Shown here: one piece after another, positions 12,244 through 26,933 of the stretch | How the letters are laid out: every line of letters begins with the position of its first letter | Numbering within the stretch: the first letter of the stretch is position 1 | DNA from: a virus | Virus record (IMG/VR): IMGVR_UViG_3300042558_003569 | Location: 1-30,966 of that record | Reading direction: 5' to 3' (one strand) | DNA: 30,966 nucleotides | Translations under genes and position numbers: made by a program | The notes under the pieces: generated by a model | Told to the model about the DNA's origin: nothing | Databases searched by the model: none | What the model saw: only the letters and a program-made list of their open reading frames with translations

Positions 12244-13128
12244 TTATTCTTCAGCGAGAGACTTGAAATATTCCAAGTCATCATCTCCACCAATGTCAAC
12301 TGGTGTTGAACGTGGTGCAAACTTAGCTGCGGGTGGTGAGAGGTCGATAGATTCAGCAGTAGTTGAAGGTGCAATGCCTTCAAAGCCCAATACTTTATCC
12401 AAACGAGTCTTCAATTGGTTGTATGGTTTAAACAACTTTGGTTCAGTAAATTCCTTGAGAGAATATTCTTTCTTCCAAATTGTTTCCAACTCAGCATCAT
12501 CTTCAGACAAGGCAGACTTGCTAGCAAATTCTGATTTGTCATAATTACGATAACCTTCAACATTACGAATCTTCAACTTGAAGTTAGCACCTTCCCATAA
12601 ATCAAATGGGTTGATAGGTGTTTCATCAGCGAATTCGGGATTCATCGCTTCATTAATCTTGTCGAAAATTTTCTTACCGAATTTGAACAAGCGAACCTGT
12701 CCTTCGTTTGACGGATTACTTGGATCAGAAACGATCAAAATATTTGTCATGTAAGTTAGTTTACGTTTTTGCTTACGTGCGATATCTTTGTTGGCTTCGA
12801 TACCAGAATTCCAAAGTGTGTTATTGTGTTCGCACACAGGACACTTATCATTCAAAGTAGTCAAACAGTTATCAATGAACCAACCGCCAGGTCCCTGAAA
12901 TCCGTGTGTGAATACTCTAACCCATGGCAAAGCATCATCACCATCGATAGCAGGACTTGGCAAGAAACGAATTACTGCCATGCCGTTGCCAGCTTTGTCA
13001 ACTTCTGGTTGCCAGAATCTGGTATCATCTTTTGATCCGGCTTCTGCGGGAGTGCCGGTTGCTTCAATCGCTTTTGACAACTTGTCGAAATTGTCACGAT
13101 TGCGCTTAAGATTTGCAAATGAACTCAT
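12244..13128 (-). CDS. gp32: Single-stranded DNA-binding protein gp32
   Basis: A 294-residue protein (T4 gp32 is 301). The basic N-terminus (FANLKRNRDNF) corresponds to the cooperative-binding B domain. The core contains DTRFWQPEVDKAGNGMAVIR and a zinc site with H75, C88, C96 and C99 (THGF, DNC, KCPVC). It continues GPGGWFIDNC and FDLWEGANFKLKIRNVEGY. The C-terminus is the acidic tail (GGDDDLEYFKSLAEE) that contacts replication partners. gp32 coats ssDNA during replication and recombination. Ribosome-binding site AAGGAAA lies 5 nt from the ATG. The AU-rich unstructured leader would suit gp32-type translational autocontrol. A strong terminator follows. Confidence 0.97.
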   Translation of the reverse strand: MSSFANLKRNRDNFDKLSKAIEATGTPAEAGSKDDTRFWQPEVDKAGNGMAVIRFLPSPAIDGDDALPWVRVFTHGFQGPGGWFIDNCLTTLNDKCPVCEHNNTLWNSGIEANKDIARKQKRKLTYMTNILIVSDPSNPSNEGQVRLFKFGKKIFDKINEAMNPEFADETPINPFDLWEGANFKLKIRNVEGYRNYDKSEFASKSALSEDDAELETIWKKEYSLKEFTEPKLFKPYNQLKTRLDKVLGFEGIAPSTTAESIDLSPPAAKFAPRSTPVDIGGDDDLEYFKSLAEE

Positions 13129-13195: not shown

Positions 13196-13702
13196 TTATA
13201 TAGGCGACCTGTCCAGAAGTTTATCCAACATCATTAAAGTATTACCTATATCTTTGTGATGTACACCGATACCACCAGCGGCGATAAACCCCTGTATAAC
13301 ATCATGTGTATCATCAATCAATACCGATTCTGGTGTGGCATATTCGGCTTTCGCTTTACGTCCAGAAACAATATTGGCTTTGAATGGAATGCCTTTATCA
13401 CGCAACCATTCAATTTTTTGCTCAGCAACTTCTCGGTGATATTTTTGACCACCAGAAGATGAAAGAATCTCTACCTCGACTTCATTTTCATGTTGATATT
13501 GTGTAATGTACGTCAACAAGTCTCGACCACCTGTCCACCAGTCCAATGTTTTAAATTGTTCTGATTGCACAAAATGATCCCAATTCACATTAAAGTCTTT
13601 CCGATCCCGCATAGAACCAGGTAACTCATCATATAGTTCAAGGTACCGGCGATCAAAGTTACACAGAACGCCGTCCATATCGAGGTAGATTTTTTTTATC
13701 AT
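13196..13702 (-). CDS. HAD-superfamily 5'-nucleotidase-like phosphatase
   Basis: A 168-residue HAD protein. Motif I is IYLDMDGVLCNFD, with nucleophile D8 and acid/base D10. Motif II is EILSSSGG. The conserved lysine lies in SGRKAKAEYA, and motif IV is VLIDDTHDVI. The fold resembles the 5'(3')-deoxyribonucleotidase (NT5C) group found in many large phages, which could adjust dNMP pools. It overlaps the gp59 gene by 4 nt and stands between gp59 and gp32, which are neighbours in T4, so it has been inserted into a conserved replication operon. The substrate is not determined by the sequence. Confidence 0.85.
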   Translation of the reverse strand: MIKKIYLDMDGVLCNFDRRYLELYDELPGSMRDRKDFNVNWDHFVQSEQFKTLDWWTGGRDLLTYITQYQHENEVEVEILSSSGGQKYHREVAEQKIEWLRDKGIPFKANIVSGRKAKAEYATPESVLIDDTHDVIQGFIAAGGIGVHHKDIGNTLMMLDKLLDRSPI

Positions 13703-14289
13703 ATCATCTTCTTTAGAATAAGTTTATATTTTAACACATCTTGTGGCAGAAATGTGGCATACTTGAGCAATCTTAACCGAAATTCTGGCCACCGAATAGT
13801 ATCGGCAATCCGTGCATTCCAGTTAGGTTCAAAACCAAGTATCTTATTGAGTATGCACAAAGTTTCAATTTGTGTAACCTTCTGCATAGTCTTACGTAAT
13901 ATCACAGGATAGTCACCGTCATTCACTTTGAACAAATCGTTTGGATTGTCGCATCCATCAAATAGTGTGTGACAATCATTTTCGAAAAAGTACGATAGTG
14001 ATTGTAACACCTTTTGGTGAGTCTTGTAATTGATATCTGCTTCTTCAGTTAACAAATCACCAGCCCAAGTGTTAGGTTTCTCAACCAAGTTGGACACGAA
14101 AAATAATTCCATGTCTTCCTTGTTTGTATACTTCCTTGACAACTTGTGAAAGTGGTATTTGTCACGCCTATTCTCAAATGCATCAACTGAGATGTTACTC
14201 TTACCATTATATTTAAAGTAATCGTAAGATTCTCGGTTGAAGTGCAGTTTTAAAGAATTGAATAACGCAAATGTTTCATAACCAGTCAT
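13699..14289 (-). CDS. gp59: Helicase loader gp59
   Basis: A 196-residue protein (T4 gp59 is 217). The diagnostic part is RRDKYHFHKLSRKYTNKEDM, then LFFVSNLVEKPNTWAGDLL, which aligns well with T4 gp59 (RRDKYFFQKLS, FISNLVANQDAWIGD). The N-terminus (GYETFALFNSLKLHF) and the helical C-terminus also fit. gp59 loads the gp41 helicase onto gp32-covered forks and recombination intermediates. It overlaps gp33 upstream and the HAD gene downstream by 4 nt each (ATGA type), in the same order 33-59 as in T4. Confidence 0.93.
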   Translation of the reverse strand: MTGYETFALFNSLKLHFNRESYDYFKYNGKSNISVDAFENRRDKYHFHKLSRKYTNKEDMELFFVSNLVEKPNTWAGDLLTEEADINYKTHQKVLQSLSYFFENDCHTLFDGCDNPNDLFKVNDGDYPVILRKTMQKVTQIETLCILNKILGFEPNWNARIADTIRWPEFRLRLLKYATFLPQDVLKYKLILKKMI

Positions 14290-14510
14290 ATGGGTAAACG
14301 AGATTTCTTCACTTTCAACATATTCAAATCGGAAGCCAACAATTCAATTTTCGATTTTAAATTCGAATTAATTAATGTTGCGGCGACTTCCGTTTCAAGA
14401 CCCGTTTCTGCACAATACTCAACTATAGCTTCAAGATGATTGATGTTTCTTTCGGAGACGAATCTATCAATCTCCACAGAAAACGTCTTCATTTCTTCTT
14501 TAGTTGGCAT
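14286..14510 (-). CDS. gp33: Late transcription coactivator gp33
   Basis: A 74-residue protein of the phage late-transcription coactivator family; it is shorter than T4 gp33 (112). The pattern FSVEIDRFVSERNINHLEAI, then VEYCAETGLETEVAATLINS and LKSKIELLASDLNMLK is what I recall of gp33 in T4-like aquatic phages. The protein bridges the RNA polymerase beta flap and the sliding clamp and works with the gp55 sigma at TATAAATA promoters, which are present in this window. The ATG overlaps the dsbA stop, and the stop overlaps gp59. Confidence 0.87.
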   Translation of the reverse strand: MPTKEEMKTFSVEIDRFVSERNINHLEAIVEYCAETGLETEVAATLINSNLKSKIELLASDLNMLKVKKSRLPI

Positions 14511-15013: not shown

Positions 15014-15574
15014 TTAAATAACTCCTTTTGTTCGGTCAATTTTATCACCTTTGCTTTTGTAGAAAATATGCCTGCCAATTTTAGTCTCCTTTTGTAGTTT
15101 TGTCCAATTTGGATTAACATAATCTGCATGATAATATGTCGCACCATTTGTAACATCCTCCATCCGATCAAAATTGATGTACAGGTTAGTTGCTAACTCT
15201 CTAATGTCATTATACAACTTTGTACTCTTGATTGTCAACCGTTTTGAGGTAAATAAGGAATCACAATACCAAGAAAATTGGCAAGTGTTACCGGTCTTTT
15301 GGGTTACTACATCGCAAATATTACTAGCATAGTTGCCGGTCTGTACACGATTTATAGTGACAAACGCAACAGCCATTTGGCCAGTAACGGGTTCATGTGC
15401 CGACTCAAAATATATATTCTCAGCCAGACATGTCACGTGTTTTTGTGCCTCTTTTGATAGAGACTGATAGCTTGCCTTGATTGGCATAATGTTGTGTATA
15501 TCAACATTGATTGAAGCTACCATTAAAATAATACTTGATAAAAATGCACTTAGAAGCACAATCTTACTTTGCAT
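15014..15574 (-). CDS. SleB-type cell wall hydrolase (endolysin)
   Basis: A 186-residue protein with a cell wall hydrolase (SleB/Hydrolase_2) domain. The core is CLAENIYFESAHEPVTGQMA with likely catalytic E57, then AVAFVTINRVQ and ICDVVTQ. After that come CQFSWYCD, then NGATYYHADYVNPNW and IGRHIFYK. SleB-type enzymes cut peptidoglycan glycan strands (lytic transglycosylase/amidase reports). The N-terminal 22 residues (KIVLLSAFLSSIILMVAS) form a signal peptide or signal anchor, so export by Sec and a SAR-type endolysin are plausible. Ribosome-binding site is AAAGGA, 7 nt from ATG. A small membrane protein gene follows 1 bp later. Confidence 0.9.
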   Translation of the reverse strand: MQSKIVLLSAFLSSIILMVASINVDIHNIMPIKASYQSLSKEAQKHVTCLAENIYFESAHEPVTGQMAVAFVTINRVQTGNYASNICDVVTQKTGNTCQFSWYCDSLFTSKRLTIKSTKLYNDIRELATNLYINFDRMEDVTNGATYYHADYVNPNWTKLQKETKIGRHIFYKSKGDKIDRTKGVI

Positions 15575-15619: not shown

Positions 15620-15892
15620 TTACGACTTCTTAGTAACCTTGGTAGTAGGTTCAGAAATGTTAGAAACGAAACCATTTAAAGCATGTGCCTTAGTGATGAT
15701 TTCTTGTTCTGATGGGAATGATGAATATTCTGGCTGATTAGGTAACTGTTGTCCTTGAGTGCGAGCATTCTCGGAAGCTACCTGCCAGTTATTATGTGCA
15801 ACTTCCCGTTTAGACATATACTCCTGTTCGAGCATGTCTTTAGAAAGTTTTAGAAGTTCGAGACGGATCTCGAATGGTGTCATGTTACTCAT
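15620..15892 (-). CDS. Conserved small phage protein, unknown function
   Basis: A 90-residue protein beginning MSNMTPFEIRLELLKLSKDM, then LEQEYMSKREVAHNNW. It ends with FPSEQEIITKAHALNGFVSN before a Lys/Thr tail. I recall near-identical patterns in many T4-like phages of aquatic bacteria, always unassigned. It is likely helical and charged, without Cys or membrane segments. AAGGAG precedes the ATG by 6 nt. It follows the tmRNA gene by about 30 bp and is probably cotranscribed with it. Confidence 0.82.
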   Translation of the reverse strand: MSNMTPFEIRLELLKLSKDMLEQEYMSKREVAHNNWQVASENARTQGQQLPNQPEYSSFPSEQEIITKAHALNGFVSNISEPTTKVTKKS

Positions 15893-15970
15893 ATTTTTCT
15901 CCTTGTGTGATGAGTGTAGTGTAGTTGGTTATTCTGTTACGAGGAAACCAACTGAAACCCTAGTCAGCGT

Positions 15971-16003
15971 TTAGGCTGCCAATGCGAACTTTTCATCGTT
16001 TGC
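15971..16003 (-). other. tmRNA tag reading frame (ANDEKFALAA)
   Basis: Ten codons from resume codon GCA to TAA, preceded by AATAACT, close to the AATAGTC before the E. coli resume codon. The end ALAA is the ClpX/ClpA-recognised type of degron. The tag resembles the beta/gammaproteobacterial set (ANDENYALAA in E. coli, ANDERFALAA-type in betaproteobacteria as I recall) more than typical longer alphaproteobacterial tags. Confidence 0.93.
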
Positions 16004-16087
16004 AGTTATTTTTGTTTTAGTGTTAACGTCAACTCTGACGAGTAGCCAATTTTTGTACTTGTTGCCTTGTCGAAACTAGTCAAGCCC

Positions 16088-16174
16088 ATCATAAGAATTT
16101 TGGTTTAGATTATCTGGATGTCCGTGATCCCTTAGTCATCTTCATTATCGCACGGCGCAGACCTAAATTCTTAT
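16088..16174 (-). other. tmRNA intervening segment with processing stem
   Basis: The segment between the CCA end and the coding piece is bounded by a 14-nt inverted repeat (ATAAGAATTTAGGT at 16174-16161, ACCAAAATTCTTAT at 16104-16091; one mismatch). It stacks on the acceptor stem in the precursor, so the two tmRNA ends are brought together before the loop is cut out, as in permuted bacterial ssrA genes. The final A of CCA is part of the repeat. Confidence 0.85.
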
Positions 16175-16238
16175 GGTGGACTTGGGGGGATTCGCACCCC
16201 CGTCCAAAACACTTTTCAAAAAATCAGTTTACTACCAT

Positions 16239-16517
16239 TCATTCTGTTGTTGGTAATACAGTTTCTACTATTTCCATGATAACCAATTCAGGAATTTCAG
16301 GAATAGTGTGTTCAATACCCAATGTTTTGAGAATATCGATTTCCGGATTAATGAAAACATCATCAGCGGAAAGTTCAGTTACTTTTTCAGAAACAAATGC
16401 AATCAATTCTTGTCCTGTTAAACCATCGGGATTAGAAATGTTGGTATAATTCGTTGTTCTGTATTCCACTTTAATTGTAGAATCTTCATTTACTTTGATA
16501 AATTGAAAGTCGTTCAT
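16239..16517 (-). CDS. Small acidic protein downstream of adhesin, unknown
   Basis: A 92-residue acidic protein starting MNDFQFIKVNEDSTIKVEYR. It is rich in Glu, Ile, Val and Thr, with no Cys after the start and no membrane segment. It is not recognised. It directly follows the adhesin-like gene (23-bp gap). A small accessory or chaperone for that protein is possible by position, but nothing in the sequence shows this. The tmRNA acceptor piece begins at or just after its TGA stop, so transcript processing of the tmRNA would trim this mRNA's 3' end. Confidence 0.7.
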   Translation of the reverse strand: MNDFQFIKVNEDSTIKVEYRTTNYTNISNPDGLTGQELIAFVSEKVTELSADDVFINPEIDILKTLGIEHTIPEIPELVIMEIVETVLPTTE

Positions 16518-17602: not shown

Positions 17603-18250
17603 TCAATCCCATAGGGCTTGATAATACTTTCCAAATAATCTAAAACCATTCTTGTTTCGTTCTTCGTGTGCTCTGTATGCATCCCAATCGCATTTTCGGT
17701 CACCTAACTCTACCATTTTTTTGCAATTTTTACCACCGTATTCCGAGTCAGCATCTTGCCATTCAATTTTACTTGTACCAGTCCAATACTTCTCAGACCA
17801 ATCCTCATTATTCTTGCATTCGAATGCTTGAATCATTTCCTCAAGTACCCAATCCCAACGTTTGAAATGATTGTCATCAATATCATAATCGTTTTCTTTT
17901 GCTGGTGCTTCGGTGCTGCGTAAACCAAGGCCTTCTGGTACATCTTCATCATCAACACAAGGAGCACCATGTTTTGTTTTATGTAACTGTTTCAACATTG
18001 GCAAAATAATCAATGCAAGGGTATGATCCATTGACCATGTATCGTACTTATCAATACGAATTTTCACTTTGCGTTTTTTATGACTTTCTACCCAAACGCA
18101 GACTTTTTGTAACCACGTATCTTTGCCATCTGGTCCAGCCAGCCACCCGCCAATTTCAAAACGTTTATCTTTTGATAACCAGAAAAATAGTTTATCTGCT
18201 ATCTGATAAGGACCAATCCAATCTCTGTAAGGACCAATATATATTTTCAT
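17603..18250 (-). CDS. Conserved phage protein of unknown function
   Basis: A 215-residue protein starting MKIYIGPYRDWIGPYQIADK. It is Trp-rich, with conserved-looking stretches KVKIRIDKYDTWSMDHTLAL and HGAPCVDDEDVPEGLG, then FKRWDWVLEEMIQAFECKN. I have seen this pattern in many marine and freshwater phages without an assigned role. The His/Asp/Asn-containing HGAPCVDDEDVP segment could be a binding site, but this is a guess. The ATG overlaps the end of the nuclease gene by 4 nt. Confidence 0.82.
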   Translation of the reverse strand: MKIYIGPYRDWIGPYQIADKLFFWLSKDKRFEIGGWLAGPDGKDTWLQKVCVWVESHKKRKVKIRIDKYDTWSMDHTLALIILPMLKQLHKTKHGAPCVDDEDVPEGLGLRSTEAPAKENDYDIDDNHFKRWDWVLEEMIQAFECKNNEDWSEKYWTGTSKIEWQDADSEYGGKNCKKMVELGDRKCDWDAYRAHEERNKNGFRLFGKYYQALWD

Positions 18251-18921
18251 CTTTTATCCCAGTAATTTTGTATGTATGTATTTAAACTGTTAATATAATT
18301 CGATTTGTCTTTAATAAAAATTTGTGGTACTTCTTCTTCGGTTGCAATAGCTACCACAATCTTATTTATAGTTTTACCTGTAATTTCTTCAAACATTAGT
18401 GCATATGCGGTACATTGCATAAAGTAATTTTGAATCTTGTCTTCACTCTTTTCACGTGTAGAGGATTTGAAGTCAATAACTGATAGTTCATTATCCCACT
18501 CAGCAATTAAGTCCACACGACCTGCCATTCTTAGCTGGTGACTATATAACGCCTGTTCAAGACAATAGATATTATCCACAAACTCATCCAACTTCGGCCG
18601 CAATTGCTTAAACATCATTTTGTCTAATGGCATCATTGATGCTACTTTTTTAGGTGACAATTCACCCAATAAATAAGTTTCACATAAACTGTGCAATTTA
18701 GTACCACGATTTGAAGCACGTGTAGCAATCTTATTTGCTTCTTCCGCACCGACACGCTGGCGCCATTCCATAATGGCCTTCTTATTGTAATCTGCCAAAA
18801 CAGTAGTCACCGATGGGTACATTTCACCACTCGGTGTATTGTATCTTCTGCCAGCATCTGTAGTAACAGCTTTTAAGTCAAAATCCAACTCAGGTAATTT
18901 TATAAATTTAAATGGCATCAA
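18247..18921 (-). CDS. PD-(D/E)XK superfamily exonuclease
   Basis: A 224-residue protein with the RecB/Cas4/MGME1-like nuclease pattern. Motifs are GTKLHSLCETYL (H77), GRVDLIAEW (D137), LSVIDFKSS (D150, K152) and QCTAYALMFEE (Q169, Y173). An N-terminal segment (PSGEMYPSVTTVLADYNKK) is usual in the phage members. All catalytic residues are intact. It probably processes DNA ends in replication, recombination or host DNA breakdown. Two ATGs in tandem (18921, 18918) overlap the upstream gene's stop, so the exact start is uncertain by one codon. Confidence 0.88.
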   Translation of the reverse strand: MMPFKFIKLPELDFDLKAVTTDAGRRYNTPSGEMYPSVTTVLADYNKKAIMEWRQRVGAEEANKIATRASNRGTKLHSLCETYLLGELSPKKVASMMPLDKMMFKQLRPKLDEFVDNIYCLEQALYSHQLRMAGRVDLIAEWDNELSVIDFKSSTREKSEDKIQNYFMQCTAYALMFEEITGKTINKIVVAIATEEEVPQIFIKDKSNYINSLNTYIQNYWDKR

Positions 18922-23586: not shown

Positions 23587-23731
23587 ATTCTTCTTCCTGT
23601 TTTAAAAGACGATAGGTACTCTTATCGTGGTGTTTATGTTTATTACTATACTTCTCAGATTCTGCATTTTTTCTAAACTTCGTTTTTTGAATTTTCTGAG
23701 GTTTATTTCCAGCGACCAACATTTGCATCAT
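23552..23731 (-). CDS. 59-residue basic protein overlapping two neighbours
   Basis: MMQMLVAGNKPQKIQKTKFR, then KNAESEKYSNKHKHHDKSTY and RLLKQEEEYELENRHTKRN. It is strongly basic, His/Lys-rich and probably nucleic-acid-binding or disordered. ATG 23731 overlaps the ClpP stop (ATGA), GGAG lies just before it, and ATG 23728 or 23722 are alternatives. The last 35 nt overlap the next gene in another frame. I recall similar short KxTKFRKN...HDKSTYR proteins near this place in related phages. Confidence 0.65.
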   Translation of the reverse strand: MMQMLVAGNKPQKIQKTKFRKNAESEKYSNKHKHHDKSTYRLLKQEEEYELENRHTKRN

Positions 23732-24345
23732 GCTCCGAAAATACGATCCGCCACGTTAAGTTCAACCAATTCTTGTGGCTGCAACCAAATGTCTGTAGCA
23801 GGCAACAACTTCTTTTTAACTTCTCGTTCTGTAAGTTGTGTGTTTTCAACCAACAAATTTAACATGCGTTGGTTTGTGTAATCAGCTTCAATCATCTCAG
23901 ACTTGATATCGTGGAATTTACCTTGAATTTCATCGGAATATTGGTGACACATGCAAGACGTATTCTTAGCAATGTATCTATGACCTGGTTCACCTGAAGA
24001 AAAGATAAGGAATGCGGCACTCATAACAGAGCCAATTCCAATAGTTCTAATTGGCAAAGCTGAATGCTTCATCAAATCAATTAAAGCAAATGCATCAGTC
24101 AAATTGCCACCTACTGAATTAACATATAGTGTCAACATTCTGTCTTCGTTTTGGTCTAAATTTTCATATACAATCCACTGCATAGCACGATTGATATTTT
24201 CTTCGTTAATTTCACCCGTTAAAAAATGAATGCTGTTATCCAACAAACGTTGGTTAACTATGTCAAACCAACCTGCGCCATCCATGTTATCATCAATTAA
24301 ACTCTGTTTCATTAAATTAGATGCTCTCATTTTTATGCCATTCAC
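23728..24345 (-). CDS. clpP: ClpP-like serine protease
   Basis: A 205-residue ClpP-family protein with a complete triad. Ser109 is in GIGSVMSAAFLIFSSG, His134 in SCMCHQYSDEIQG and Asp185 in LPATDIWLQPQELVEL. The oxyanion-side GG is in LYVNSVGGNLTDAFALIDLM. The N-terminal axial loop region differs from bacterial ClpP. In phages such proteins may act as prohead proteases or work with the host ClpX/ClpA. No prohead core genes are in this window, so the second option stays open. Start: ATG 24345 or ATG 24330; both overlap the galE-like gene. Confidence 0.92.
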   Translation of the reverse strand: MNGIKMRASNLMKQSLIDDNMDGAGWFDIVNQRLLDNSIHFLTGEINEENINRAMQWIVYENLDQNEDRMLTLYVNSVGGNLTDAFALIDLMKHSALPIRTIGIGSVMSAAFLIFSSGEPGHRYIAKNTSCMCHQYSDEIQGKFHDIKSEMIEADYTNQRMLNLLVENTQLTEREVKKKLLPATDIWLQPQELVELNVADRIFGA

Positions 24346-25255
24346 TTGCTGTTGTAATAATACTCATTATATCATGTTTAGGTCGGTAATGCAAGACTTT
24401 TTCGGCAAGACTAATATCGGCAACCAAAACGGGTGGATCACCTTGTCGTCTAGGCAATATATCATAGTCAACATATTCACCGGTAATTTCGGAAACTAAT
24501 TTTATCATTTCTAATACCGAAACGCCTTGGCCTGTACCCAAATTTAAAGTTGTAGATTTCTTACCTGATTGTAAATAATTGAAAGCATCAAAATGTGCTT
24601 CAGCAACATCACAAACGTGTACATAGTCACGGACGCACGTACCATCTGGTGTTTCATAATTATCACCATATATTTCAACGCTATTTAGATTTTGTAAGAT
24701 GTTTGGAATTAGATGTGTCTCGGGATCATGCGACTCACCCATTTCTCCATCCAAATCAGCGCCGGCAAGATTAAAATACCGAAATATTACGTGATTAATA
24801 TTTGAGTAACGAATGGCAGTCTCAGCCATGTATTTTGAAATACCATATGGATGATTCTCTGCAATTTTACCATTCTCTTTAATTGGTCTATTACTTGGTG
24901 CATAGACGCCTGCAGTAGAAGAATATATAATATTTTTCACTCTGAACATTGTCATCACATTCAACAGGTTGCAAGTGCCTGCTGTATTAACATCCATAAA
25001 TTCATTTGGATATTCCCACGATTGAGAGACTTCGATTCTTCCCGCTAGGTGAAATACTGTATCAATTTTAACACGTGAGAATAAATCCAACAAAGAACTT
25101 TTTCGGCGAATATCACCTTCATAGAATATGTCCATGTAACGGTGTTTTGGTGGTTTACAATCATAACCAATGACATTGAAGCCTTCACGCTTCAATTTTT
25201 TACACAGGTGAGAACCGAGATAACCCGATGCACCTGTAACTAATACTGTACTCAT
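24317..25255 (-). CDS. galE: UDP-glucose 4-epimerase-like SDR enzyme
   Basis: A 312-residue extended SDR. The NAD-binding motif is VLVTGASGYLGSHLCKK (G8, G11, G14). It has DTVFHLAGRIEVSQSWEYPN and IIYSSTAGVYAP with S112-S113-T114, followed by YGISK (Y137, K141). GalE-type signatures are RYFNLAGADLDGEMGESH, then HLIPN and CVRDYVHVCDVAEAH. It interconverts UDP-hexoses at C4. With the glycosyltransferase and the nucleotidyltransferase-cupin gene upstream, it forms a small sugar cassette, possibly for virion, DNA or host surface glycan changes. It overlaps the clpP start by 29 nt. Confidence 0.92.
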   Translation of the reverse strand: MSTVLVTGASGYLGSHLCKKLKREGFNVIGYDCKPPKHRYMDIFYEGDIRRKSSLLDLFSRVKIDTVFHLAGRIEVSQSWEYPNEFMDVNTAGTCNLLNVMTMFRVKNIIYSSTAGVYAPSNRPIKENGKIAENHPYGISKYMAETAIRYSNINHVIFRYFNLAGADLDGEMGESHDPETHLIPNILQNLNSVEIYGDNYETPDGTCVRDYVHVCDVAEAHFDAFNYLQSGKKSTTLNLGTGQGVSVLEMIKLVSEITGEYVDYDILPRRQGDPPVLVADISLAEKVLHYRPKHDIMSIITTASEWHKNESI

Positions 25256-25256
25256 A

Positions 25257-26006
25257 TTAACTAAAAATTAATGATATATTCGGACCAAGTTCTTCTTTGA
25301 TAACATTTTGTTTCCACGGAAAACCTGTTGGGTATTTCTCAGCAGACACAGCATTACCTTTGTCAAAAAACTCCTGCGTTACTGAATTTGGATTTCCATC
25401 CAATCTATAACACATGGTGTAATCATTCGAACAATCAAATTTTGGAAAATGATTCTTCAGCGCACTAAAAAACTGTCTATCGGCACCCCATTGGCCGTAC
25501 CAAGCATGCCCAATCCTAACAGCAATGTCACGCCTAATAGCAAAGCTTGAGGTATCAATGTGGAATACTTCACCATTGAAATATACAGGCCATTTACCAA
25601 GCGACTCACAGTCATCATTGCACAAAAAATTGCCGTCTTTATCATAAATTTTCCTTAACGAATATGCCCAATCATTACCTTGTTTGATTTTATCAACAAG
25701 TTTTTCCACGTGATTTGGTTCGTACCAATTGTCTTCGTCTAGATAACAAATTACATCGGCATTAACCAAAAAAGAACAAGCTGAATAGACACGGTGTCCA
25801 TACCAACCCTTACCAACATTTTCCTCAAGCACAATCTTTTTTACTTTGGTTGCACCTTCGATTTTGTCAATAACACTTAACTCACTCTGTTCACCATCAA
25901 TAAAAACATAATGTGTTAAATCACTGTATGTTTGTTTATCAACGGAATCAACACACCTTACTAGATGTTCACTTCCGATTGTCGGTGTTACTATTGCTAC
26001 TTTCAT
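25257..26006 (-). CDS. Family 2 glycosyltransferase
   Basis: A 249-residue GT-A protein. The N-terminus MKVAIVTPTIGSEHLVRCVD is the nucleotide-sugar strand and helix. D90-E91-D92 in VICYLDEDNWYEPNHVEKL is the DxD metal motif. The segment DTSSFAIRRDIAVRIGHAWY, then GADRQFF is the acceptor side with an ED/D-type catalytic base. It likely transfers a sugar from a UDP-sugar. Together with galE downstream (1-bp gap) it belongs to the cassette. The start overlaps the 25969 gene by 38 nt in another frame. Confidence 0.87.
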   Translation of the reverse strand: MKVAIVTPTIGSEHLVRCVDSVDKQTYSDLTHYVFIDGEQSELSVIDKIEGATKVKKIVLEENVGKGWYGHRVYSACSFLVNADVICYLDEDNWYEPNHVEKLVDKIKQGNDWAYSLRKIYDKDGNFLCNDDCESLGKWPVYFNGEVFHIDTSSFAIRRDIAVRIGHAWYGQWGADRQFFSALKNHFPKFDCSNDYTMCYRLDGNPNSVTQEFFDKGNAVSAEKYPTGFPWKQNVIKEELGPNISLIFS

Positions 26007-26175
26007 TATATAATCCTAGTCTGTCAGATTCAGCTTCGAGCTGATTCATCAATTTCTTTTTTAATTCTTCCTCTTTTTGCAAATCTCTAGCAAAGATTGC
26101 GTCCCATCTATTGTTGTATTCATCTTGTGCTACACTAAATGGTCTTGGTTTACTTCCTTTTCCACCGTCACTCAT
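25969..26175 (-). CDS. Conserved small hydrophilic phage protein
   Basis: A 68-residue protein, MSDGGKGSKPRPFSVAQDEY, then NNRWDAIFARDLQKEEELKK. I recall the start MSDGGKGSxxRPFxVxxxEYxNRWDxIF from numerous aquatic phages, where it is unassigned. It is charged and helical after residue 25. ATG 26175 overlaps the upstream stop by 4 nt, and the end overlaps the glycosyltransferase start by 38 nt. Confidence 0.8.
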   Translation of the reverse strand: MSDGGKGSKPRPFSVAQDEYNNRWDAIFARDLQKEEELKKKLMNQLEAESDRLGLYNESSNSNTDNRK

Positions 26176-26933
26176 TTTTTCCTCTCTATGTCATCTTCTT
26201 CACAATATGTTCCGTATTGTATCTCAACAATCTTACATTCACTGGCATAAGGATTAGTTAATTTATGCCATTCTTCGATACCAATATCGATGGTTTGATT
26301 TAGGCCAAGAATTTGACCTGGCAATTTATAACCACTGGCCATTTGACTTTCAACCAGACACTGGCCTTTTGTAACGTGCCAATGTTCTTTTCGGAATCTA
26401 TGTCGTTGCATACTCAATGATTTACCTGGTTCAACAACCAGTTCTTTTACTTTTGTATTAGCAGCTTCATATATTACACGATAATAACCCCAAGGCCGTT
26501 CAACCTTTGGTGCTTTCCATTCTTCTAGAATCCAACTACTCGAATTCTTTTTATCTTCACCACCAACACCAAACTTAAAAACAATATTATTGTCTTTAAC
26601 ATCCATCTCTGGAATATTATCAGCAGTTCTATCGCCACCATTTGCAAAGATAATCTCATCCATCGGAAACATTTTCCTAACTTGAATGATTGCATCTTTG
26701 GCAGTACCATCATCATCATTAAATTTAATAACACGATGTACTTGATATAAATTTTCAATAATCTCTGACCTCTCAGAGAAAGGCATAAATGCTCGACCCT
26801 TCTTGCGTTCGAGCCATGCATCACTATTCACACCAATAACCAAGAGACTACCGAGTGAACGTGCTGCTTTGATGTAGGCGATATGCCCCGAATGTAGTGG
26901 ATCAAATCCACCCGTTATCAATACAATTTTCAT
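26172..26933 (-). CDS. Nucleotidyltransferase - mannose-6-P isomerase-type cupin fusion
   Basis: A 253-residue two-domain protein. Residues 1-125 are a cytidylyltransferase-like Rossmann domain (VLITGGFDPLHSGHIAYIKA with HxGH at 14-17, then GVNSDAWLERKKGR, FSERSEIIENL and IIFANGGDRTADNIPE). This resembles the HldE/RfaE adenylyltransferase part. Residues 143-245 are a type II mannose-6-phosphate isomerase/ManC C-terminal cupin (VERPWGYYRVIYEA, VEPGKSLSMQRHRFRKEHWH, EIQYGTYCEEDDIER) with metal-type H178, H184, H186 and H223. The protein may make a nucleotide-activated sugar precursor for the GalE/GT2 genes downstream. The substrate is unknown. Confidence 0.87.
   Translation of the reverse strand: MKIVLITGGFDPLHSGHIAYIKAARSLGSLLVIGVNSDAWLERKKGRAFMPFSERSEIIENLYQVHRVIKFNDDDGTAKDAIIQVRKMFPMDEIIFANGGDRTADNIPEMDVKDNNIVFKFGVGGEDKKNSSSWILEEWKAPKVERPWGYYRVIYEAANTKVKELVVEPGKSLSMQRHRFRKEHWHVTKGQCLVESQMASGYKLPGQILGLNQTIDIGIEEWHKLTNPYASECKIVEIQYGTYCEEDDIERKK

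Follow-up and report, generated by a model that had tools for sequence, protein, structure and literature searches.

The intervening sequence (IVS) that separates the halves of permuted tmRNA genes has so far been regarded as a spacer that is discarded. A tmRNA gene carried by a 30,966-base IMG/VR virus record, the whole of which is referred to here as the window, raises the question of whether in phages this segment is something more.

The permuted tmRNA gene and its setting

A phage-encoded two-piece tmRNA had been proposed for positions 15921-16237 in an earlier note, and the covariance-model search recommended there bears the proposal out. On the minus strand, matches above the cut-off and covering the whole model were obtained to RF04321 (15971-16236, 138.3 bits, gathering score 47) and to the beta-type model RF01850 (15911-16294, 126.7 bits, gathering score 84, E 1.5e-38). 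The extent first proposed was close, but the strand was missing and an 86-nt intervening segment at 16173-16088 had gone unremarked. ARAGORN reports a tmRNA* at 15880-16266 with the tag ANDEKFALAA. By its scores the gene is of the beta type, because the alpha model reaches only 75.6 bits against the 126.7 of RF01850, in a comparison where the cyanobacterial (cyano) permuted model has no separate score. The gene has the full set of tRNA-like parts, the tag and the beta-type ends. The acceptor piece with its encoded CCA lies upstream of the coding piece, which is the permuted order; this arrangement, the 7-bp GGGCTTG/CAAGTCC pairing from 16087 and the tag had all been read correctly. The acceptor stem includes the G3-U70 wobble, a pair with a role in recognition by alanyl-tRNA synthetase. 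The features of the locus are as follows.

15911..16294, minus strand: permuted tmRNA gene, extent of the RF01850 model (ARAGORN, 15880-16266)
16174..16236, minus strand: acceptor piece as modelled by RF04321, from a putative 5' end to the encoded CCA 3' end (16176-16174)
16185..16201, minus strand: T-arm with a 5-bp stem and, at 16190-16196, the loop TGCGAAT in place of TTC- (sequence and script)
16178..16184, minus strand: acceptor stem 3' strand CAAGTCC, followed by discriminator A at 16177 (sequence)
16088..16173, minus strand: IVS of 86 nt, a 13-bp covarying stem around the element A core, with a TGAT end (alignment)
16105..16160, minus strand: element A core, IVS positions 14-69 (alignment)
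16081..16087, minus strand: acceptor stem 5' strand GGGCTTG, start of the coding piece (sequence)
15971..16003, minus strand: tag reading frame GCA...TAA with resume codon and stop, ANDEKFALAA, LAA end (sequence, ARAGORN)
15911..15970, minus strand: 3' part of the coding piece with the beta-type terminal hairpin (RF01850 alignment)
18247..18921, minus strand: PD-(D/E)XK nuclease, upstream (PF12705 3.9e-08; phrog_298 exonuclease 6.9e-75)
15014..15574, minus strand: cell-wall hydrolase (endolysin; PF07486 1.5e-21, phrog_938)
14286..14510, minus strand: gp33-type late-transcription coactivator (PF16805 3.8e-15)
13699..14289, minus strand: gp59 helicase loader (PF08993 6.1e-16)
12244..13128, minus strand: gp32 ssDNA-binding protein (PF08804 2.1e-47)

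In the direction of transcription, the nuclease is followed by other genes, the tmRNA, a 90-aa protein, the cell-wall hydrolase, two small genes, gp33, gp59, one gene and gp32, in agreement with the T4-like replication/lysis setting that the note had recognized. SmpB was not found in 14 viral records, any of which may be fragments, and it is therefore probably supplied by the host. A ClpP-family protease gene lies at 23728-24345 of the window (minus strand, PF00574 4.8e-32), and among 13 records of tmRNA phages, counting the window, 5 have a CLP_protease match; such a protein may be a partner of the tag. Sugar-nucleotide genes occupy 24317-26933 on the same strand (an epimerase, a family 2 glycosyltransferase and a cytidylyltransferase-like protein with a mannose-6-P isomerase C-terminal domain).

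Such a gene is less unusual than was first supposed. PMC9004378 describes 402 phages with 133 unique tmRNAs, 53 of them two-piece and 50 of those from marine or aquatic samples, and PMC11915505, the origin of RF04321, counts 79 unique phage tmRNA sequences. The window tmRNA has no nucleotide match among deposited phages. The cultured phages Mosig and Melnitz (MT647606, MZ577096), of which Mosig, on SAR11, is the closest system in culture, likewise have a permuted tmRNA between a PD-(D/E)XK nuclease and gp33-gp59-gp32, and their syntenic proteins are 34-55% identical to those of the window. In Mosig, the nuclease is followed by one small gene, the tmRNA, a late-transcription accessory protein, ThyX, one gene and gp59; in Melnitz, by two small genes, the tmRNA, one gene, the coactivator and gp59. 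Unlike the window, both lack a cell-wall hydrolase between tmRNA and gp33, fit the alpha subfamily best in Rfam, carry the tags GEDNFALAA and ANDNYVPVDYALAA, and have IVSs without element A. The genomic slot is common to the three phages; the type of tmRNA differs.

Fragments of host ssrA have been described in prophages (PMC9004378), and the window gene could be a dead piece of this kind acquired by the phage. The full-length model match and the retention of a tmRNA beside the same genes in relatives both speak against this origin, which is highly improbable.

Intervening sequences of phage and bacterial genes

Viral contigs were scanned for ANDExFALAA tags, giving at least 120 loci, which are a sample of that tag type because the scan used those tags. 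ARAGORN called 95 of the 120 listed as permuted, 2 as standard only and 23 as neither; exact ANDEKFALAA tags occur in permuted and in standard genes alike. In three loci (L019, L055, L067) ARAGORN gives 26-aa tags, ANVSTFKFWQSPVS(V/I)AANDEAFALAA; these may truly be long tags, or the resume codon may have been set in the wrong place. A script requiring GGG, CCA and 6 of 7 acceptor pairs, and rewarding G3-U70, resolved 85 of the 120, with IVSs of 28-284 nt (median 84). Among these matches listed, G3-U70 is present in 85/85, and ten different acceptor stems with paired changes were seen among 73 viral genes; since the script demands or rewards these very features, neither count is an independent test. 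The IVS ends in TGAT in 71 of the 85, and the nine rows with an end other than TGAT or TAAT are possibly mis-cut. T-loops in this listed set are TTC in 53, TGC in 24, GGC in 7 and AGC in one, those of 57 genes with element A are TGC in 33, TTC in 16 and GGC in 8, and TTC is present in 21/21 bacterial loci.

Bacterial beta-type genes (RF01850) share with the window the structure, the tag type, the IVS arms and the TGAT end. Their IVS forms a hairpin, with arms like those of the window, a short loop and mostly a TGAT end; the phage loop is bigger. Nine of the ten well-resolved bacterial IVSs measure 30-33 nt, four of them copies from one Cupriavidus genome, and that of Pelistega measures 61 nt; of the 18 bacterial loci run through the script, 7 were left unresolved and L167 (5 nt) appears mis-cut. 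In the order to which Pelistega belongs, 300 genomes were sampled, and 13 exceeded the RF01850 cut-off. Cupriavidus pinatubonensis HN-2 has five beta-type copies over the cut-off in one genome, with exact-tag copies on both chromosomes and plasmid p2. Compared with the bacterial hairpin, the window IVS has an enlarged loop, and its covarying stem encloses a nearly invariant core of 56 nt.

This core, element A, shows a mean pairwise identity of 0.955 across 17 genes with distinct IVSs, the identical IVS of L297 standing for that of the window. In the same genes, the arms are at 0.715, the acceptor piece at 0.681, the first seven bases of the coding piece at 0.860, and its positions 8-90 and 91-190 at 0.700 and 0.629. 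Columns outside each of the baits used to collect the copies are still 0.924 and 0.964 identical, against 0.717 for the arms. On these alignments the window IVS is more strongly conserved than the tmRNA halves. The core pattern was found at 63 places in viral contigs; a 3'-half bait returned the same 63 and a 5'-half bait 65, the extra places being one cut by a contig end and one with a single change. With the window included, 57 of 64 copies lie within a resolved IVS, always of 86 nt, and five more (L304, L317, L336, L340, L348) were placed by eye in IVSs that are cut off or were missed by the script. The remaining two copies are not in a tmRNA at all but between the tRNA-Met and tRNA-Trp genes of another phage (L307:2282-2360, L323:687-765), and a role in tmRNA maturation therefore cannot be the sole one. 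The L307 copy has no nucleotide match among deposited phages, and a terminator seen by eye after it had no call in a scan. In Burkholderiales, with two mismatches allowed, the element was met in 1 of 399 genomes, judged a chance hit. Searched against Rfam, the core gave only weak sub-threshold matches besides tmRNA, with no convincing riboswitch or other family. A model, R1, run over 29 sources gave eight matches, the weak one among them (L026, 32 bits) being left out of the element A count.

The arms form a 13-bp stem in which 8 of the 13 pairs have changes on both sides. Paired cells amount to 95.4%, against 84.3% in shuffles (0/500 reach the observed value) and 29-45% when the strands are slid; one of five structure measures, that of further pair types, was no better than shuffles (138/500). 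A predicted inner helix, CCGUG/CACGG, is invariant and so has no support from covariation. In the predicted fold of the precursor, the acceptor stem is joined to the IVS stem (z -2.39).

Other contents of phage intervening sequences

In other phages, the same place is occupied by another conserved RNA or by a small protein gene. The 85 tag-set IVSs among the matches listed fall into 19 clusters and 39 singletons, and comprise 9 that bear open reading frames (ORFs), 5 with element A and 71 of other kinds. Higher identity in the IVS than in the mature parts is also seen, for example, in L027/L100 (0.98, 0.77), L029/L113 (0.96, 0.74) and L070/L078 (0.97, 0.74). The pattern is absent from L042/L046/L072 (0.81, 0.95), L035/L040/L052 (0.75, 0.74), L058/L073/L086/L120 (0.81, 0.80), L039/L096 (0.89, 0.91) and L079/L099 (0.66, 0.63). 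No known RNA scored above its gathering score in the IVSs of 15 loci.

A second RNA, element B, was defined from the IVSs of L003 and L098. Its pattern occurs at 21 places, 21/21 of them in an IVS (19 resolved, L368 and L373 by eye; the entry L360 is the record of L003). Across 12 distinct IVSs, identity reaches 0.942 within the IVS, as against 0.687 and 0.657, the bait spanning 26 of 67-72 positions, and the bait-free pair L003/L098 gives 0.93 against 0.72. Element B behaves like element A in this. The Mosig IVS contains GTCCTAGATGAAGGAAA, which agrees with the start of element B except at one position.

A different content was revealed by a characteristic start architecture, namely a Shine-Dalgarno motif and an ATG that opens a frame of 15 codons or more, the end of which lies 1 nt ahead of the coding piece. 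It is present in 9 of the 85 tag-set IVSs among the matches listed, against a mean of 0.5 and a maximum of 3 in shuffled controls. A scan for this architecture returned at least 120 stretches; of the 120 listed, 50 were resolved as IVSs and 70 were left over, many of them unrelated genes; the resolved stretches listed hold 24 distinct ORFs of 21-29 aa, all hydrophobic and all ending 1 nt before the coding piece. In ten 24-aa ORFs, single-base codon differences were synonymous in 313 cases and not in 106, with 120.5 synonymous expected, a 7.3-fold excess counted over pairs that are not independent. The shifted frames give 1.10 and 0.16, and the 23-aa and 22-aa groups 2.97 and 12.0. These ratios indicate that some sister-phage IVSs carry small protein genes under purifying selection. 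Pfam cut-offs were passed by two of eight IVS translations, PF09791 (4.1e-12; L096, without its own ATG) and PF03692 (1e-05; L064). Less confidence attaches to frames that, like the one in Melnitz, continue past the IVS into the coding piece. A 34-aa IVS peptide of L195 has no match among deposited phages, and the 451 nt around it gave only matches of 32-36 nt in three records. The 273-nt IVS of L232 contains a frame of 83 aa which by eye resembles a holin and which has no Pfam match.

Given these cases in sister phages, it could be supposed that the window IVS also nests a small protein gene, like those 24 hydrophobic ORFs. However, stops interrupt all three sense frames of the core in 14/14 distinct cores, and the mostly open antisense frame lacks a synonymous excess (55 such changes for 57.4 expected). 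An excess is present in two frames full of stops (77 against 45.9, 88 against 44.7), where it is taken as chance. Coding was rejected across the six frames, by stops or by the lack of synonymous excess in the open frame, and a nested gene here is improbable in the extreme.

Permuted phage tmRNA is itself already known, and the IVS conservation described here was not met in print by literature searches. Neither conserved RNAs nor protein genes were reported from the IVSs of phage tmRNAs in the literature searched, which covered few subscription papers and passages of PMC9004378, PMC11915505, PMC3037559, PMC5964084 and PMC10872708. PMC11915505 mentions one IVS with a repetitive element and one with a tRNA-Ala. 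The latter, in the permuted gene of GCA-2688965__sp002688965.2, resembles the present case in having another gene in the IVS; it is a single example, nominally from an archaeon, and holds a known tRNA, whereas the window has an uncatalogued conserved RNA.

Exchange, constraint and the role of the core

The main rival to a selected RNA domain is recent horizontal spread, in which the tmRNA would be an ordinary permuted one and the IVS an exchanged cassette, a recombination joint or a stretch of homology for exchange. IVS identity is 98-100% among 16 close relatives of the window, whereas the tag drops to 72% in six and the acceptor piece to 72% in L327; for this reason pieces are taken to be exchanged around the IVS, and the tmRNA halves look mosaic. 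Seven close relatives (L297, L303, L305, L306, L315, L327, L351) have other tags, ANDERFLMAA and ANDESYALVA, and an identical IVS. Also in favour of a cassette, core copies are near-identical with almost no variants or intermediates, and IVS types do not track gp32 or gp59 similarity. Identity of gp59 to that of the window is 28-100% in element A carriers (41 of 61 loci with a match) and 27-65% in non-carriers (40 loci), with non-carriers (L026, L032, L040, L051, L052, L059, L081) at 58-65% and carriers L002 and L056 at 59%; the gp32 median is 64 for both. Against mere spread, identity in the arms beside the core has fallen to 0.72, with compensating changes, and the core has not diverged, which argues that the core is also under constraint. 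Exchange and constraint are not separated by these data, and spread as the full explanation is rather unlikely.

The reading favoured here is that of a functional tmRNA whose IVS is under selection, which is likely irrespective of how the core acts. By analogy with known biology, a T4-like phage would transcribe its beta-type permuted ssrA as one precursor, from which host nucleases would excise the 86-nt IVS, RNase P cutting at GGG and 3' nucleases trimming to CCA. The acceptor stem and P2 would then hold the two pieces together, and with AlaRS, SmpB and EF-Tu from the host the tmRNA would free stalled ribosomes and add ANDEKFALAA. As the note proposed, this might serve the phage late in infection.

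Within this reading, the core would be an RNA domain maintained by selection, and the most likely option, held tentatively and at somewhat less than even chances, is that it acts in cis on the maturation or the amount of the tmRNA. Control in cis is preferred because the IVS belongs to the precursor and because, in the predicted fold, the IVS stem extends the acceptor stem. Regulation at a tmRNA locus has a precedent in the glutamine riboswitch match (RF01739) of Melnitz, likewise a candidate regulatory RNA tied to a phage tmRNA (PMC9004378); that match belongs to a known family and sits at the tmRNA 3' end, whereas element A sits in the IVS. Alternatively, the excised IVS might persist as a stable small RNA, an 86-nt hairpin acting in trans on a host or phage target. 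The near-invariance of the core and the two copies between tRNA genes would suit such a role; against one E. coli rRNA operon, however, the longest complementary run is 10, within the 10-15 of shuffles, and matches to the window itself were collected without a control. Action in trans is an unlikely explanation, on a par with recent spread.

More speculatively, and with slightly less confidence than control in cis, the IVS may be a cargo slot, a loop loaded with RNAs or mini-genes in which maturation and cargo release are one event and element A gates maturation. Its cargo would comprise elements A and B and probably more RNAs, single-helix membrane peptides and small Cys-rich proteins. If this were true, element A would represent a new class of regulatory RNA. 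If the IVS is selected cargo, phage ssrA genes would be composite loci, and long IVSs of phage tmRNAs would be a place to seek new RNA families and mini-proteins.
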